DNA from: Rhodospirillales bacterium
GTDB lineage: Bacteria; Pseudomonadota; Alphaproteobacteria; Rhodospirillales; JASLLZ01
Direction: 5' to 3'
Assembly: GCA_030754885.1 (NCBI GenBank)
Contig: JASLZL010000086.1
Coordinates: 1 to 52,151 of the forward strand
DNA length: 52,151 bases
The position numbers and the translations under genes are program-made. This document shows, piece by piece, positions 31,640 to 48,523 of the stretch (positions within the stretch are counted from its first letter, which is position 1; each line of letters opens with the position of its first letter). The notes beneath the pieces are model-generated. The model was not told the DNA's origin. It was given only the letters and a program-made list of their open reading frames with translations, and did not search any database.

Positions 31640-32563
31640 ATGCTCCGACTGCGCTTTCTCTTCGCCGCCGCCGCCGCCATCCCAGCACCCCTTCGCGGGG
31701 GCCTGTGGATCGTCGTCTCGACCATCTTTTTTGCCCTCACCGCGGTCATTATCCGCCACGTCTCGGCCGAGGTGGATTCCTTCGAGATCGCCTTCTTTCG
31801 CAACCTCTTCGGCGTCCTCTTTATGATGCCGTGGCTGATGAAGGCCGGGGTGATCCGGATGAGAACGCGGCGTCTCGGTCACTATGGCCTGCGCGCCCTA
31901 GCGGCGACCGGTGCCCAGTTGTGCTGGTTTACCGCCGTCACCATTATGCCCCTGGCCGATGCGACAGCGCTCAACTTTACCTCGCCGTTGTTCGCCGTCA
32001 TCGGTGCCGCCTTGATCTTGGGCGAGACCGTCGGGCCGCGCCGCGCGGCGGCTGTGTTCATCGGGTTCGTCGGTGCCGCGATCATCCTCAGGCCGGGGAT
32101 AGAGGCCTTCACTCCGGCCGCCGCAATCGTTCTTGCCGCGTCGCTCTTTCAGGCCCTGGCGCAATTGGCGGCGCGGTCATTGTCGTCCACCGAATTGCCC
32201 AACCTCATCGTGCTTTATTTGAGTTTGATGATGACGCCGTTGACCGGCATCGCGGCGTCCTTGGTGTGGGTGACTCCGTCGTGGCAGGCGCTTGGCTGGC
32301 TGGCCGTCATGGGCTTCATCTCGACCCTTGGCCAACAGGCCCTGGTGCGCGGCTTTCGGGCCGCGGAAGCCTCGGTGGTGGCGCCCTTCAACTATGGCCG
32401 GATGGTCTTTGCCGCGGTGCTTGCCTACATCTTTTTTGGTGAGGTGGCGGATATCTGGACCTGGGTCGGGGCGACGGTGATTTTCGGAGCGACCGTCTAC
32501 ACGGCGCGGCGCGAGACCCAGGTGCGCCGCTCGAAGGCCGCATCCGGCCCGGCGGAGGAGTGA
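31640..32563 (+). CDS. EamA-type (DMT superfamily) transporter, first of a tandem pair
   Basis: The 307-residue product has two EamA repeats, about ten membrane helices, with IRHVSAEVDSFEIAFFRNLF near the start and WFTAVTIMPLADATALNFTS at the end of helices 3-4. A six-base gap separates its stop from the ATG of the next gene, which encodes a clear paralogue with the same landmarks, so this is a tandem duplication. It could form homodimers or heterodimers with its neighbour. The substrate is unknown. Confidence 0.9.
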   Translation: MLRLRFLFAAAAAIPAPLRGGLWIVVSTIFFALTAVIIRHVSAEVDSFEIAFFRNLFGVLFMMPWLMKAGVIRMRTRRLGHYGLRALAATGAQLCWFTAVTIMPLADATALNFTSPLFAVIGAALILGETVGPRRAAAVFIGFVGAAIILRPGIEAFTPAAAIVLAASLFQALAQLAARSLSSTELPNLIVLYLSLMMTPLTGIAASLVWVTPSWQALGWLAVMGFISTLGQQALVRGFRAAEASVVAPFNYGRMVFAAVLAYIFFGEVADIWTWVGATVIFGATVYTARRETQVRRSKAASGPAEE

Positions 32564-32569
32564 TCGATC

Positions 32570-33466
32570 ATGGCTGACTCGACTGTTCCTCCTCGCCCCA
32601 GGATTTCGGCCCCGTTGCGGGGCGTGCTGTGGATGGTGGCGTCGTGTGCCTGTTTTGCCTTGATGGCAACGATGGTGCGGCGCGCCTCCTTCGACGTCCA
32701 TCCCGTCGAGATCGTCTTCTTCCGTTATCTGTTCGGGCTTCTCTTCCTGGCACCCTGGCTCCTGCGCGCCGGCCTGGCCCCATTACGCACGCGGCGCCTG
32801 GGCATGCATCTCTTTCGCGCCCTGGCCGGCATGGGGGTGGTCCTCACCTGGTTCACCGCCGTTTCGTTGATGCCGCTTGCCGAAGCGACGGCGCTGGCCT
32901 TTACGGCGCCCCTGTTCGCCACCTTGGGCGCGGCACTTTTTTTGGGCGAGAGTGTGCGCCTGCGCCGCTGGTCGGCCATCGCCATCGGTTTCGCCGGCGC
33001 CATGATCATCTTAAGGCCGGGCCTGCAGGCGATAAGCTGGCCGGCGCTGCTGGCCCTCGCCAGTTCGGCCTTCCTGGGCACCGCGGCGCTGGTCATCAAG
33101 TCGCTGTCGCGCACCGAGGAATCGAACACAATCGTCCTTTATCTGTGCCTTCTGACAACGCCGCTGACGGCCATAGGGGCCTTTTTCGTGTGGACGACGC
33201 CGTCGCTGGAGTCCCTGGCCTGGATGGCCGGTATCGGGGTCGTGGCAACCATCGGCCAACTGGCCTACACCCGCGCTTTTGCCGCCACCGAGACGTCGAT
33301 CGTCATGCCGCTTACGTTCTTCAAGCTGATTTTCGCGGCACTATTGGGCTATTTCTTTTTCGCCGAGGTGGCGGACTCGTGGACCTGGATCGGGGCGGCG
33401 GTGATCTTCGGGTCCGCCGTCTACACGGCGCGCCGCGAAGCCCAACTGGCAACGAACACCCCCTAG
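32570..33466 (+). CDS. EamA-type (DMT superfamily) transporter, second of a tandem pair
   Basis: The 298-residue paralogue of the preceding gene has matching landmarks (FDVHPVEIVFFRYLFGLLFL; WFTAVSLMPLAEATALAFTA; the end VIFGSAVYTARREAQL). A GGAGGAGTGATCGATC ribosome site inside the end of the first gene precedes its ATG, so the pair is one operon. The copies have clearly diverged, so the duplication is not recent. A 33-bp perfect hairpin follows 17 bases after the stop and probably ends the transcript. Confidence 0.9.
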   Translation: MADSTVPPRPRISAPLRGVLWMVASCACFALMATMVRRASFDVHPVEIVFFRYLFGLLFLAPWLLRAGLAPLRTRRLGMHLFRALAGMGVVLTWFTAVSLMPLAEATALAFTAPLFATLGAALFLGESVRLRRWSAIAIGFAGAMIILRPGLQAISWPALLALASSAFLGTAALVIKSLSRTEESNTIVLYLCLLTTPLTAIGAFFVWTTPSLESLAWMAGIGVVATIGQLAYTRAFAATETSIVMPLTFFKLIFAALLGYFFFAEVADSWTWIGAAVIFGSAVYTARREAQLATNTP

Positions 33467-33483
33467 GGCATTTCAAGTTTGTT

Positions 33484-33565
33484 CGGCACCAGCCCGCACC
33501 CCCACCCGGCCACCCACAGCGCACAATGCCATTGGGTGGCCGGGTGGGGGTGCGGGCTGGTGCCG
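33484..33565. terminator. 33-bp perfect inverted repeat between convergent genes, probable bidirectional terminator
   Basis: Bases 33484-33516 are the exact reverse complement of 33533-33565, with a 16-base loop. It lies between the stops of an EamA transporter (plus strand) and lsrF (minus strand), where a shared terminator is expected. Its stem is two to three times longer than usual intrinsic terminators, very GC-rich, and lacks a T-run on the right. It may be a transcript barrier or a mobile palindrome. Confidence 0.7.
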
Positions 33566-33577
33566 TAACTTAATTCC

Positions 33578-34462
33578 CTAGGCCAACGCGTCCTTGAGCG
33601 TTTGATAGAGATCGAAGGCCTTGTCCGGCTTTTCATCCTCATGCACGACGGCGCCGACGGCCTGAATCATGGCCAGCGGGCTGTCGGACTGGAAGATGTT
33701 GCGCCCCATGTCGACGCCCAAGGCGCCTTGATCGATGGCGCGCGAAGCCATGGTCAGCGCTTCCAGTTCGGGCAACTTCTTGCCGCCGGCGATGACGATG
33801 GGCACAGGGCAGCCGGCGGTGACGCGCTCGAAGCCTTCGTCGATGTAATAGGTCTTTATGTAATGAGCGCCGATCTCGGCGGCGAGGCGAGTCGCCAGGC
33901 CGAAATAGCGGGCATCGCGCACCATGTCCTTGCCCACGCCGGTGACGGCCAGGGTCGGGATTCCATAGCGGGTGCCGGTGTCGATCAGCTTGACCAGGTT
34001 GGCGATGGATTTGTGCTCGAACTCGGCACCGATATAAACCTGGGCCGCCATGGCGGCGGCGTTGAGGCGGATGGCATCCTCGATCTCGACGGCGACAAGC
34101 TCGTTCGAAAGTTCGGTCAGAATGCTCTGCCCGCCGCTGCACCTAAGGGCCACCGGCTTGTCGGTCGCCGCCGGGATACAGCTGCGGAGTGCGCCGCGCG
34201 TGCACATAAGGACATCGGCATAGGGCATCAGGGGTACAATTGAGAGGTCGATGCGCTCTATCCCGGTGGTCGGTCCCTGGAAATAGCCGTGATCGAAGGC
34301 CAGCATCACCGTGCGCCCGGTCTTCGGGTTGAAGATACGCCCCAGGCGGTTCTGCATGCCCCAGTCGAGGGCGTTTGAGCCCTTGAGGAAGAAGGGCTCA
34401 TTGACAGCCGGGGTATCGGTGCCGAAATCCTTGCCGTCCTTTATGTCGTCCAAATCCGTCAT
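33578..34462 (-). CDS. lsrF: LsrF-like 3-hydroxy-5-phosphonooxypentane-2,4-dione thiolase
   Basis: The 294-residue protein closely follows E. coli LsrF as I remember it: [12 protein letters not shown] at the start, [70 protein letters not shown] with the Schiff-base Lys, and [18 protein letters not shown]. LsrF is the last enzyme of phospho-AI-2 breakdown, a class I aldolase-like fold that transfers an acetyl group to CoA. None of lsrK, R, A, C, D, B or G is nearby, so it is orphaned. It may work with distant lsr genes or on another C5 phosphodione. Confidence 0.9.
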
Positions 34463-46056: not shown

Positions 46057-46878
46057 ATGCTGACGGCCAAATTGGTTCTGGTGGGCTGCGGACACATGGG
46101 CAGCCCCCTTCTTGACGGCTGGCTTGAACGCGGTGTCGAGGCCCGCCACATTACCGTGGTCGAACCCGATGCCGACATCGGCGCCGCCCTTAAGCAAGAG
46201 CACGGTATTATCGTCCACGCGAGCCCCGAAACCATCCCATCGGACCTCGACCCCGATGCCGTGGTGCTCGCCGTCAAGCCCCAGATCATGGACTCGGTGG
46301 CGCCTGCCTATCGGCGCTTCGCCGATCCCCACACAGTCTTTCTTTCGATCGCCGCCGGCCGCACTTTGGACTATTTCAAGGGGCATCTGGGTGATCAAGC
46401 GGGGGTCGTGCGTTCCATGCCCAACACGCCGGCGACTGTGCGCCGCGGCGTCACCGTGGCCTGTCTCAACGCCCGCGTTCAGCCCGAACAGCAACGCCTG
46501 TGTCACGATCTCTTGGAATCGGTGGGCGAGGTGGCCTGGGTCGAGGACGAAACGCTTCTCGACGCGGTGACGGCGCTATCCGGCAACGGTCCGGCCTATG
46601 TGTTTTTGCTGGTCGAAAGCCTGGCCGGTGCCGGCATCGCGGCGGGCTTGCCCAAGGACTTGGCTTGGCACCTGGCGCGCGATACCGTGACGGGGACTGG
46701 CGAGCTGTTGCGCCGCTCGCCGCACTCGGCCGCGGTGCTGCGCGAGCAAGTCGCCACGCCGGGCGGCACCACCGCCGCCGCCATGGAGGTGCTGATGGCG
46801 GAAGACGGCCTTGAGGCCCTGATGACCCGGGCCGTCGCCATCGCCGCCCGCCGCTCGCGGGATCTCGGCAAAGGTTAG
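46057..46878 (+). CDS. proC: Pyrroline-5-carboxylate reductase
   Basis: The 273-residue enzyme has the dinucleotide loop LVLVGCGHMGSPLLDGWL, AVKPQIMDSV, VRSMPNTPATVRRGVT, and the C-terminal ALSGNGPAYVFLLVESLAG plus ATPGGTTAAAMEVL, which are the ProC signatures. It reduces P5C to proline with NADPH. It ends 64 bases from the convergent stop of a P5C dehydrogenase gene, so synthetic and catabolic enzymes on the same intermediate are neighbours. Confidence 0.96.
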   Translation: MLTAKLVLVGCGHMGSPLLDGWLERGVEARHITVVEPDADIGAALKQEHGIIVHASPETIPSDLDPDAVVLAVKPQIMDSVAPAYRRFADPHTVFLSIAAGRTLDYFKGHLGDQAGVVRSMPNTPATVRRGVTVACLNARVQPEQQRLCHDLLESVGEVAWVEDETLLDAVTALSGNGPAYVFLLVESLAGAGIAAGLPKDLAWHLARDTVTGTGELLRRSPHSAAVLREQVATPGGTTAAAMEVLMAEDGLEALMTRAVAIAARRSRDLGKG

Positions 46879-46942
46879 AGAGGTTTTATTTTATTCGCCA
46901 CCGGCCCGGGGTGCGGCCCGGTGCCGCGCAAACGGATAACCC

Positions 46943-48523
46943 TTAGTCCAACTTGATGAGGGTGTGGCTCTGCTCGCGCATGAAAAGCGGTGGGTAGTGA
47001 GGACCAAGACCACTTTTTCCCGATAGGCCCGAGCCCTTCCAGCCGCCGAAGCTCTGATACCCGGGCCAGGCGCCGGCGGTGGCGTTGGTGCGCCGGTTGG
47101 CGTAGAGCACGCCGGCCTCGGCGGTGGTGAAAAAGAGATCCACGTCCTCGGGGCGGCTTGAATAGACGCCGGCGGTCAGGCCATAGACCACGTCGTTGCC
47201 GCGTGCGATAGCCGAGGCAAGGTCGCCTTCGTAGCGGGCAACGGCGACGAAGGGCGCGAAGAGTTCATCTTTGAACAGCCGGTGATCAGCGGGCAGTCCG
47301 TCGACGATGGTCGGTTCGATGTAGTAGCCACGGTCAAAAATGCCGCCGCTCAGCCGGTTGCCGCCGAAGGCGACGCGTCCATCGGCGCGAGACTCCTCGA
47401 CCGCCTTGGCAAAGATATCGTAAGCCGCCTGATTGACGATCGGGCCCATGAAGACGTCTTTCTCCTCAGGGTTGCCGACCTTGAGTTTCCCCGTCATCTC
47501 GACCAGCTTATCCATAAAGGCGTCGTAGACCGAAGCATGGACGTAGGCTGACGAACAGGCGCTGCACTTCTCGCCGGTAAGGCCGTAGGCTGAGCGCATG
47601 ACGCCCTCAGCCGCCATGTCGGGGTCGGCGAACTCGGAGACATAAGCCGGGTTCTTGCCGCCCATCTCGGCGATAAGCGGGCGCCCGAAGGGTGAGGCGG
47701 CCATCTTGCGGTGGATGCCCATGCCGACGTCATAAGAGCCCGTGAAAGCGATGCCGTCGATGCCCGGCGCGTCGACCAGCTTGGGTCCGACGCCACTTCC
47801 GTTGACTATGTTGACGACGCCGGCGGGCAGGCCCGCCTCCTTGAATGCGTCGATGATTATGGTGCCGGTCAGGGCGCCGTTGGTGGTCGGGTGGAAGACG
47901 ACCGTGTTGCCGCCAATCAAGGCGGCGGACATCATGTTGGTCGACAGAGCGACGGGGAAGTTGAACGGCGAGATAACGGCGAAGACGCCATACGGGCGCA
48001 TGACGCTACGCGTCTCTTCGGCCGGGGTCGCACCCTTCATGGCGACGGTATAGCCCTTGTTGCGTTCCGTCTCATCGCAGTAGTAATTGATCAGGTCGAC
48101 CGCTTCCTCGGCCTCGCCAACTCCTTCGAGGCGCGACTTGCCGACCTCAAGAACGGACGCGATGCCAAGATCGTACTTGCGCGCCGCCAGTGTCTCGGCG
48201 GCGCGGCGCATCACCGTTAGGCGCTCGTCCCAGGGCATGCCCGACCACGCCGGATAGGCCTTCCGGGCCGCCGCGACGGCACGGTCGACGGAGTCCTGGG
48301 TGCCGGTGATGAATGAGCCCAGCGAGAGGTCGCTGTCGGCGGGGCTTACGATCTCGTAAGGCTCGCCGTTATTGTCGTCAGCCCCGTCGATGTAGTTAGG
48401 CGTCGTCCCGCCGAGATTAGCCTTGAAGGCCGGTATCGCCGTGTCCAGCATGTCGTGGACGGGTGTGAAATCGGCGGATACATTCGAATAGGTGACGCGG
48501 GGCAAATTGGACTGGCTGGACAT
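46943..48523 (-). CDS. pruA: L-glutamate gamma-semialdehyde (P5C) dehydrogenase, aldehyde dehydrogenase family
   Basis: The 526-residue enzyme has the ALDH core: VISPFNFPVALSTNMMSAAL, FTGSYDVGMGIHRKMAA, LIAEMGGKNPAYVSEFAD with the general base Glu, and GLTGEKCSACSSAYVHASVY with the catalytic Cys in the K-C-S-A-C-S context typical of P5C dehydrogenases. It oxidises glutamate semialdehyde to glutamate with NAD. The ATG at 48523 follows GGAGGAACAG. Because there is no PRODH domain, proline oxidation must start elsewhere. Another semialdehyde substrate cannot be excluded. Confidence 0.88.
   Translation of the reverse strand: MSSQSNLPRVTYSNVSADFTPVHDMLDTAIPAFKANLGGTTPNYIDGADDNNGEPYEIVSPADSDLSLGSFITGTQDSVDRAVAAARKAYPAWSGMPWDERLTVMRRAAETLAARKYDLGIASVLEVGKSRLEGVGEAEEAVDLINYYCDETERNKGYTVAMKGATPAEETRSVMRPYGVFAVISPFNFPVALSTNMMSAALIGGNTVVFHPTTNGALTGTIIIDAFKEAGLPAGVVNIVNGSGVGPKLVDAPGIDGIAFTGSYDVGMGIHRKMAASPFGRPLIAEMGGKNPAYVSEFADPDMAAEGVMRSAYGLTGEKCSACSSAYVHASVYDAFMDKLVEMTGKLKVGNPEEKDVFMGPIVNQAAYDIFAKAVEESRADGRVAFGGNRLSGGIFDRGYYIEPTIVDGLPADHRLFKDELFAPFVAVARYEGDLASAIARGNDVVYGLTAGVYSSRPEDVDLFFTTAEAGVLYANRRTNATAGAWPGYQSFGGWKGSGLSGKSGLGPHYPPLFMREQSHTLIKLD

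Follow-up and report, generated by a model that had tools for sequence, protein, structure and literature searches.

The perfect hairpin lying between two convergent genes in the window (the whole stretch of 52,151 nucleotides of a Rhodospirillales bacterium analysed here) is the core of a dispersed, mobile palindromic repeat that resembles a MITE. The repeat moves, as it is missing from exact sites in congeners. The tests made here set it apart from both standard REPs and intrinsic terminators. The explanation that I favor, and regard as probable, is that a MITE-like palindromic repeat is tolerated at stop codons and that replication template switching has flipped its loop and partly re-matched its arms. 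The original prediction treated the hairpin singly; it is in fact one copy of a family with about 30 sites in its own genome.

The hairpin in the window and its repeat family

An inverted-repeat search (arms of at least 16 nt, spacing of up to 400 nt) revealed a perfect pair with arms of 33 nt each at 33484–33516 and 33533–33565, which are 100% complementary and enclose a 16-nt loop (33517–33532). The 14 other inverted pairs listed have arms of 16–29 nt and a complementarity of 77–94%. The RNA fold of 33464–33585 has an energy of −96.7 kcal/mol, compared with −50.3 (sd 3.9) for shuffled sequences (z −11.8; 0 of 200 shuffles equaled it). Thus, the predicted 33-bp perfect hairpin with a 16-nt loop between convergent genes was borne out in all 33 pairs. 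The predicted lack of a terminator U-run was also confirmed: a scan of 33200–33800 gave no terminator-like site (a stem followed by a T-run), which rules out an intrinsic terminator, and no promoter-like site either. No known RNA family was matched at the gathering score, all 13 Rfam matches at E ≤1 being below it. They were mostly to miRNA models, as is expected from any long hairpin.

According to the ORF list and protein matches, the 3′ ends of an EamA-family transporter gene (32570–33466, plus strand) and of an LsrF-type thiolase gene (33578–34462, minus strand), which matches a 3-hydroxy-5-phosphonooxypentane-2,4-dione thiolase model, lie at the element. The TAG stop codons of both genes fall inside the flanking CTAGs: that of the EamA gene (33464–33466) inside the left CTAG (33463–33466), and that of the thiolase gene (CTA on the plus strand, 33578–33580) inside the right CTAG (33578–33581). 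The two CTAGs are candidate copies of a target repeat, as suggested by the sequence and the ORF list together with the empty sites of the family (left) or the presence of CCCTAGGCC at this gene end in a congener (right). The element proper is then 33467–33577 (111 bp). Copy alignment places a left outer end of type A at 33467–33483 (GGCATTTCAAGTTTGTT), which a pattern search matches with three mismatches, and a right outer end at 33566–33577, which is shorter than the type B end of other copies.

The genome search that had been proposed for the hairpin was run with a 171-nt query, which matched the window's own genome (G000) 57 times counting both strands, or at about 30 related sites on 21 contigs. 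Among 60 genomes searched as relatives, of which G001 is the only one of the same genus, seven including G000 gave matches at E ≤ 0.001. The others are G001, G051, G016, G020, G040, and G008; the match in G008 is single and short, and those in G020 and G040 have a lower identity. The G020 and G040 copies (L038, L039, L045, L049, and L050) form a diverged subfamily with 74–81% identity and other outer ends, several of them starting with CTAG. An exact core pattern was found in 21 stretches of a species-genome collection, in four MAGs that all belong to Alphaproteobacteria. With up to two mismatches, the arm core is present in 22 of 385 genomes sampled across the class (16 of 277 genera), while the controls gave 0 matches. 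Plasmids of Sphingopyxis sp. FD7, Sphingomonas sanguinis, and Novosphingobium resinovorum also have copies; the Sphingopyxis copy, in a complete plasmid, has CTAG at either end, and the annotated gene upstream stops 23 nt before the stem. Six of the 33 plasmid and class loci read have no hairpin at the threshold used. A phage collection gave no match to the repeat, and a phage origin was rejected.

Outside the stem, alignment of the copies defined two outer ends, A (GAGCATTTCAAGTTTAGT) and B (GAGCATATCCATGTTGATAAGAA, read inward), with TA outside both ends in well-kept copies. A full copy may be represented as TA (in YTAR or YCAR), outer end A, a GC-rich arm of 31–33 nt, a loop of 16–19 nt, the other arm, outer end B, and TA. 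Full copies are about 110–155 bp long between their outer ends. Well-kept copies (L087, L090, and L091) have terminal inverted repeats GAGCAT...ATGCTC, which are worn in many older copies. Copies across the class share the core hairpin but have quite unlike outer ends, some of which carry small hairpins of their own. In L207, L208, L219, and L238 of other alphaproteobacteria, the core hairpin is flanked by one or two small hairpins that differ in sequence. In L090 and L091 of G051 and L188 of its congener G061, the loop is about 26–27 nt longer, and its inner stretch CATTTGGCATGGGCCAAAATG could self-pair. Half hairpins fused to another repeat (GCGGACATAAATCATG...AATGTCCGC) were seen in L025, L028, and L029 of G000 and L080 of G001; composite elements therefore exist. 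Copies also lie at or near contig ends (G000:C44, C52, C129, and C131; G001:C18, C21, C39, C130, C146, and C157), and thus the repeat seems to break short-read assemblies, which makes the copy counts lower bounds.

Mobility, target site, and placement at stop codons

Empty sites were found in congeners, and filled sites have TA or CA (within YTAR or YCAR) at both ends. Between G051 and G061, six of the ten queried flanks were located, and four are clean empty sites (L085/L200, L087/L198, L089/L196, and L092/L199). In the exact case, L087/L198, GGCTA[element]TAAAACC is matched by GGCTAAAACC at the empty site; each of the remaining three pairs has a TA versus CA difference among its two ends and the empty site. 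In L119/L197, a collapsed copy is absent, with an extra small difference, and L091/L201 aligns on one side only. Between G000 and G001, further flanks were located for nine of ten and six of six queries. Three of these 15 flanks are clean empty sites (L062/L161, L060/L162, and L010/L171). Another five hold remnants that are collapsed or partial (L170, L172, L168, L163, and, with less certainty, L167), and the remaining seven are unclassed. Target duplication and empty sites, as expected of a MITE, are thus present, and target repeats of 2 and 4 bp are not separable from the sites compared.

The suspected target duplication is supported for the family, but for the site in the window the congener offers no clean empty counterpart. 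The thiolase gene of G001 ends at the same CCCTAGGCC without the element, and the sequence to its left matches the end of a first EamA gene and the start of a second. The window has tandem EamA transporter genes at 31640–32563 and 32570–33466; in G001 (L052), the second is mostly missing beside the thiolase gene, and thus this place in G001 is not a clean empty site. The two loci were rejected as a clean empty/filled pair since the G001 gene beside the thiolase is not orthologous to the left gene of the window. The last bases of the short spacer beside the thiolase gene in L052, CTTGAACAGCCCTAG, look like an A end read outward.

Where do the copies lie relative to genes? Gene context was assigned with a simple and crude codon-usage gene caller for 52 near-full copies, after 16 of the 68 profile matches were dropped for a short model span. 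In 41 of the 52, the distance between a stop codon and the stem is 10–25 nt, and it peaks at 17 and 23 nt. These peaks are close to the lengths of the two outer ends, that is, the stops are at the element ends. A gene end lies at 10–25 nt on 47 of 63 3′-facing sides, compared with 8 of 30 5′-facing sides. Among the 38 copies with both neighbors placed, 23 are between unidirectional genes, 14 between convergent genes (six with both stops at the element ends), and 1 between divergent genes. The crude caller flagged six of the 52 copies as lying within genes.

The window has 110 YTAR sites, of which 17 are stop codons, 68 are in genes, and 25 elsewhere; for the 19 CTAG sites the numbers are 8, 8, and 3. 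From these counts, the stop-codon preference can arise from a TA-type target plus the purging of harmful insertions, without any active recognition of stops. At L062/L161, the empty site already holds the stop codon. Insertion at the TA within a stop codon would rebuild the stop, so that the element would land without harm and settle behind a gene or between convergent genes. In the transcript, the stem 17–23 nt past the stop would be strong, and it might perhaps shield mRNA 3′ ends.

Loop inversion and arm matching

Six orthologous pairs in which both members are full hairpins can be compared. Five of these have the loop inverted in place, as expected from template switching, and three are exact reverse complements: L016/L061 (18 identities inverted versus 8 direct), L021/L071 (17 versus 6), and L209/L210 (19 versus 8). 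The last pair (G669 and G592) belongs to another family of the class, with flanks 83–90% identical and one stem position altered in both arms. L019/L076 and L020/L057 each have 15 inverted versus 7 direct identities. L022/L063 is not inverted (5 versus 13). Independently of these pairs, the loop is not fixed relative to the outer ends, as it lies 8 times one way and 16 times the other in the 24 readable of 48 scored copies (20 of the 68 profile matches were dropped for span or a missing flank). The count left out L012/L072 (a damaged arm and another loop type), L013/L079 (a garbled contig end), L029/L080 (composite, no full hairpin), and L009/L117 (collapsed). From the inversion pattern, I infer template switching as the mechanism: the flips and the re-matching would arise when replication switches template between the arms. 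Several observations stand against the favored explanation as a whole: the orthology of L020/L057 covers a single flank, L022/L063 is not inverted, the loci scanned have no transposase with matching ends, the crude gene caller places six copies within genes, and three of the four clean G051/G061 sites have a TA/CA change.

The arms were compared in 44 copies, after 24 of the 68 profile matches were dropped for span or length. Within a copy, they differ at a mean of 1.8 of 32 positions, and 12 copies are perfect; some orthologues have lost the hairpin. Thus, the check for decayed arms in relatives that had been proposed gave a mixed answer, and the window copy is at the perfect end of a range of arm matching. 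Between copies, the arms differ at a mean of 3.6 positions, or 1.4 for the nearest other copy. Over the six orthologous pairs, both arms changed together at 7 positions (spread over three of the five inverted pairs) and a single arm at 24, while another 6 positions are mismatched in both genomes. The excess of one-arm over two-arm changes indicates that homogenization is incomplete, which weakens the idea of full arm homogenization. The original prediction reasoned that such a perfect stem implies recent origin or active maintenance. The reasoning itself is right, and the five inverted loops and the two-arm changes are positive evidence of a process acting on the palindrome, against which the 24 one-arm changes stand; the window copy may be either young or re-matched.

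The main rival to template switching is ectopic gene conversion between copies, whose palindromic arms can pair either way and could give both inversions and joint arm changes without any in-place switching. Since the mismatch between the arms of a copy (1.8) exceeds the distance to the nearest other copy (1.4), some joint changes could come from conversion by other copies. In addition, the loops of L019/L076 and L020/L057 match inverted at only 15 of 18 positions, and L012/L072 hold different loop types at one site. However, three loop pairs are exact reverse complements over 17–19 nt, which a random other copy would seldom give. Conversion as the source of the whole pattern is therefore doubtful, and template switching remains the favored mechanism.

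Hairpins are also lost at orthologous sites. L009 is a full copy in G000, while its orthologue L117 in G001 retains the two outer ends, with the stem reduced to CGGTGCCG. L011/L170 has a collapsed orthologue much like L009/L117, and further collapsed copies occur in G051 (e.g., L119, L125, L135, L136, and L141). The window itself has a second, degenerate copy (46875–46946) with TTAG at both ends and a short stem only, whose G001 orthologue, L074, is a full hairpin. These losses may represent deletion of the palindrome.

It is unlikely that the hairpin is a selected RNA device, either a bidirectional terminator or a 3′-end stabilizer, kept perfect by compensatory selection on RNA pairing. Such a device would fit the position of most copies 17–23 nt behind stops, the single divergent case among the 38 placed copies, the very stable fold, and the 7 positions changed in both arms. 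On the other hand, there is no T-run, the hairpin is lost at orthologous sites, and only 12 of 44 copies are perfect. The loop also flips, and its orientation has no bias to transcription (the same in 11 cases and opposite in 12), so that an orientation-dependent RNA role is not indicated.

Another reading, which I hold to be improbable, is that the core hairpin is a conserved nucleic-acid signal, with both its movement and the flipping of its loop due to an activity dedicated to handling hairpins. It draws on the core being recognizable across the class between quite unlike outer ends. The loop would then be a frequently switching element at stop codons, where it cannot hurt genes.

Mobilizing enzymes and relation to known elements

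Proteins with PF13358 and PF01609 occur in G000, G001, and G051. In their scanned loci and in the copy loci, no transposase with matching ends was convincing; ends common to an autonomous insertion sequence, as expected of a MITE, were thus not found in the loci scanned. The search looked for the element's ends at the listed loci only, so the parent may lie elsewhere, and the term "MITE-like" is used here for this reason. L127 and L141 have loosely matching, inward-facing ends 1.1–1.4 kb apart. L152 and L153 contain two-ORF elements with GGCTC ends, which I take to be IS427-like.

It is very doubtful that a REP-associated (Y1) tyrosine transposase moves the repeat as a REP-like element. The distribution of PF01797 matches would suit this (six each in G051 and G061, whose copies are young, but zero in G000 and in G001), although this pairing of genomes amounts to two lineages only. 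In both G051 and G061, one Y1 gene adjoins a remnant copy. However, this gene has different inverted repeats of its own, unlike the element ends, which weakens it as the mobilizer. It lies at L202:1337–2168 (G061:C138) and at the same place in L203 (G051:C150), resembles REP-associated tyrosine transposases (NF047646, 73 bits for a cut-off of 80), is bounded by ATTCGGTGACAGCATACTAATTT and AAATTAGTATACTGTCACCGAAT, and directly adjoins the hairpin-family remnant and a topoisomerase-like gene. A GTAG or CGTC tag was found at the stem foot, on either side, in 0 of 52 copies, and TA or CA stands at both ends of the element. The stem is also far beyond the 6–13 bp given, together with a GTAG or CGTC tag, for GTAG-family REPs in PMC3733652. 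According to the same paper, REP elements with a RAYT are likewise palindromic and numerous and lie 3′ of genes, between unidirectional and convergent genes; unlike them, the present repeat has a stem of 31–33 bp with an untagged foot and no clearly cognate RAYT.

An assembly artefact at the palindrome, which the original prediction had named as a way in which it could fail, is very unlikely. Several copies do lie at contig ends, two of them with garbled arms (L026 and L079), but the copy in the window is internal to its 52-kb contig, independent assemblies share orthologous copies, one copy is in the complete Sphingopyxis plasmid, and related hairpins lie in contigs of at least 2.3–3.6 Mb (G344:C1, G511:C1, G638:C1, and G691:C1).

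The MITE-like reading agrees best with the known elements. Like MITEs and bacterial palindromic intergenic repeats such as RUP and Bru-RS of Brucella, the element is short, non-coding, dispersed, palindromic, and intergenic, with terminal inverted repeats and a short repeated target. Bru-RS presumably has a TAGAGCAT-like end in common with it. Unlike these elements, the present repeat has perfect or near-perfect arms of 31–33 bp, placement at stop codons, in-place loop inversion, and no parent in the loci scanned. Bru-RS is described as a stem-loop family of 103–118 bp in PMC2267715, and the phrase "stop codon" is absent from the text of a MITE review (PMC10969869). The top-ranked literature matches included no published bacterial repeat placed at stop codons and no loop inversion in such repeats, and four arm strings had no match in literature text.

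Template-switch mutations and minute inversions at hairpins, as described for yeast, rRNA, and chloroplasts, likewise involve loop inversion between perfect arms, and the arm re-matching that goes with it there may have a counterpart here in the positions changed in both arms. Template switching between inverted-repeat arms re-matches the arms and inverts the spacers, according to PMC8604942 and PMC8794818; minute inversions at hairpins appear in chloroplast papers, and a compensatory change with loop inversion is extremely rare in rRNA according to PMC8794818. The present case differs in being a mobile bacterial repeat with loops of 16–19 nt, inverted in five of the six comparable orthologous pairs.

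What does this mean for these genomes? The template-switch model predicts loop inversion accompanied by re-matching of the arms, a footprint found to be very rare in rRNA. For measuring template switching in bacteria, the repeat provides tens of naturally occurring copies in a genome, along with orthologous pairs and empty sites. It also illustrates why a terminator should not be assumed wherever a gene ends at a long perfect palindrome, and how spread may proceed in compact genomes, where a mobile element lands in stop codons that its own insertion would rebuild.
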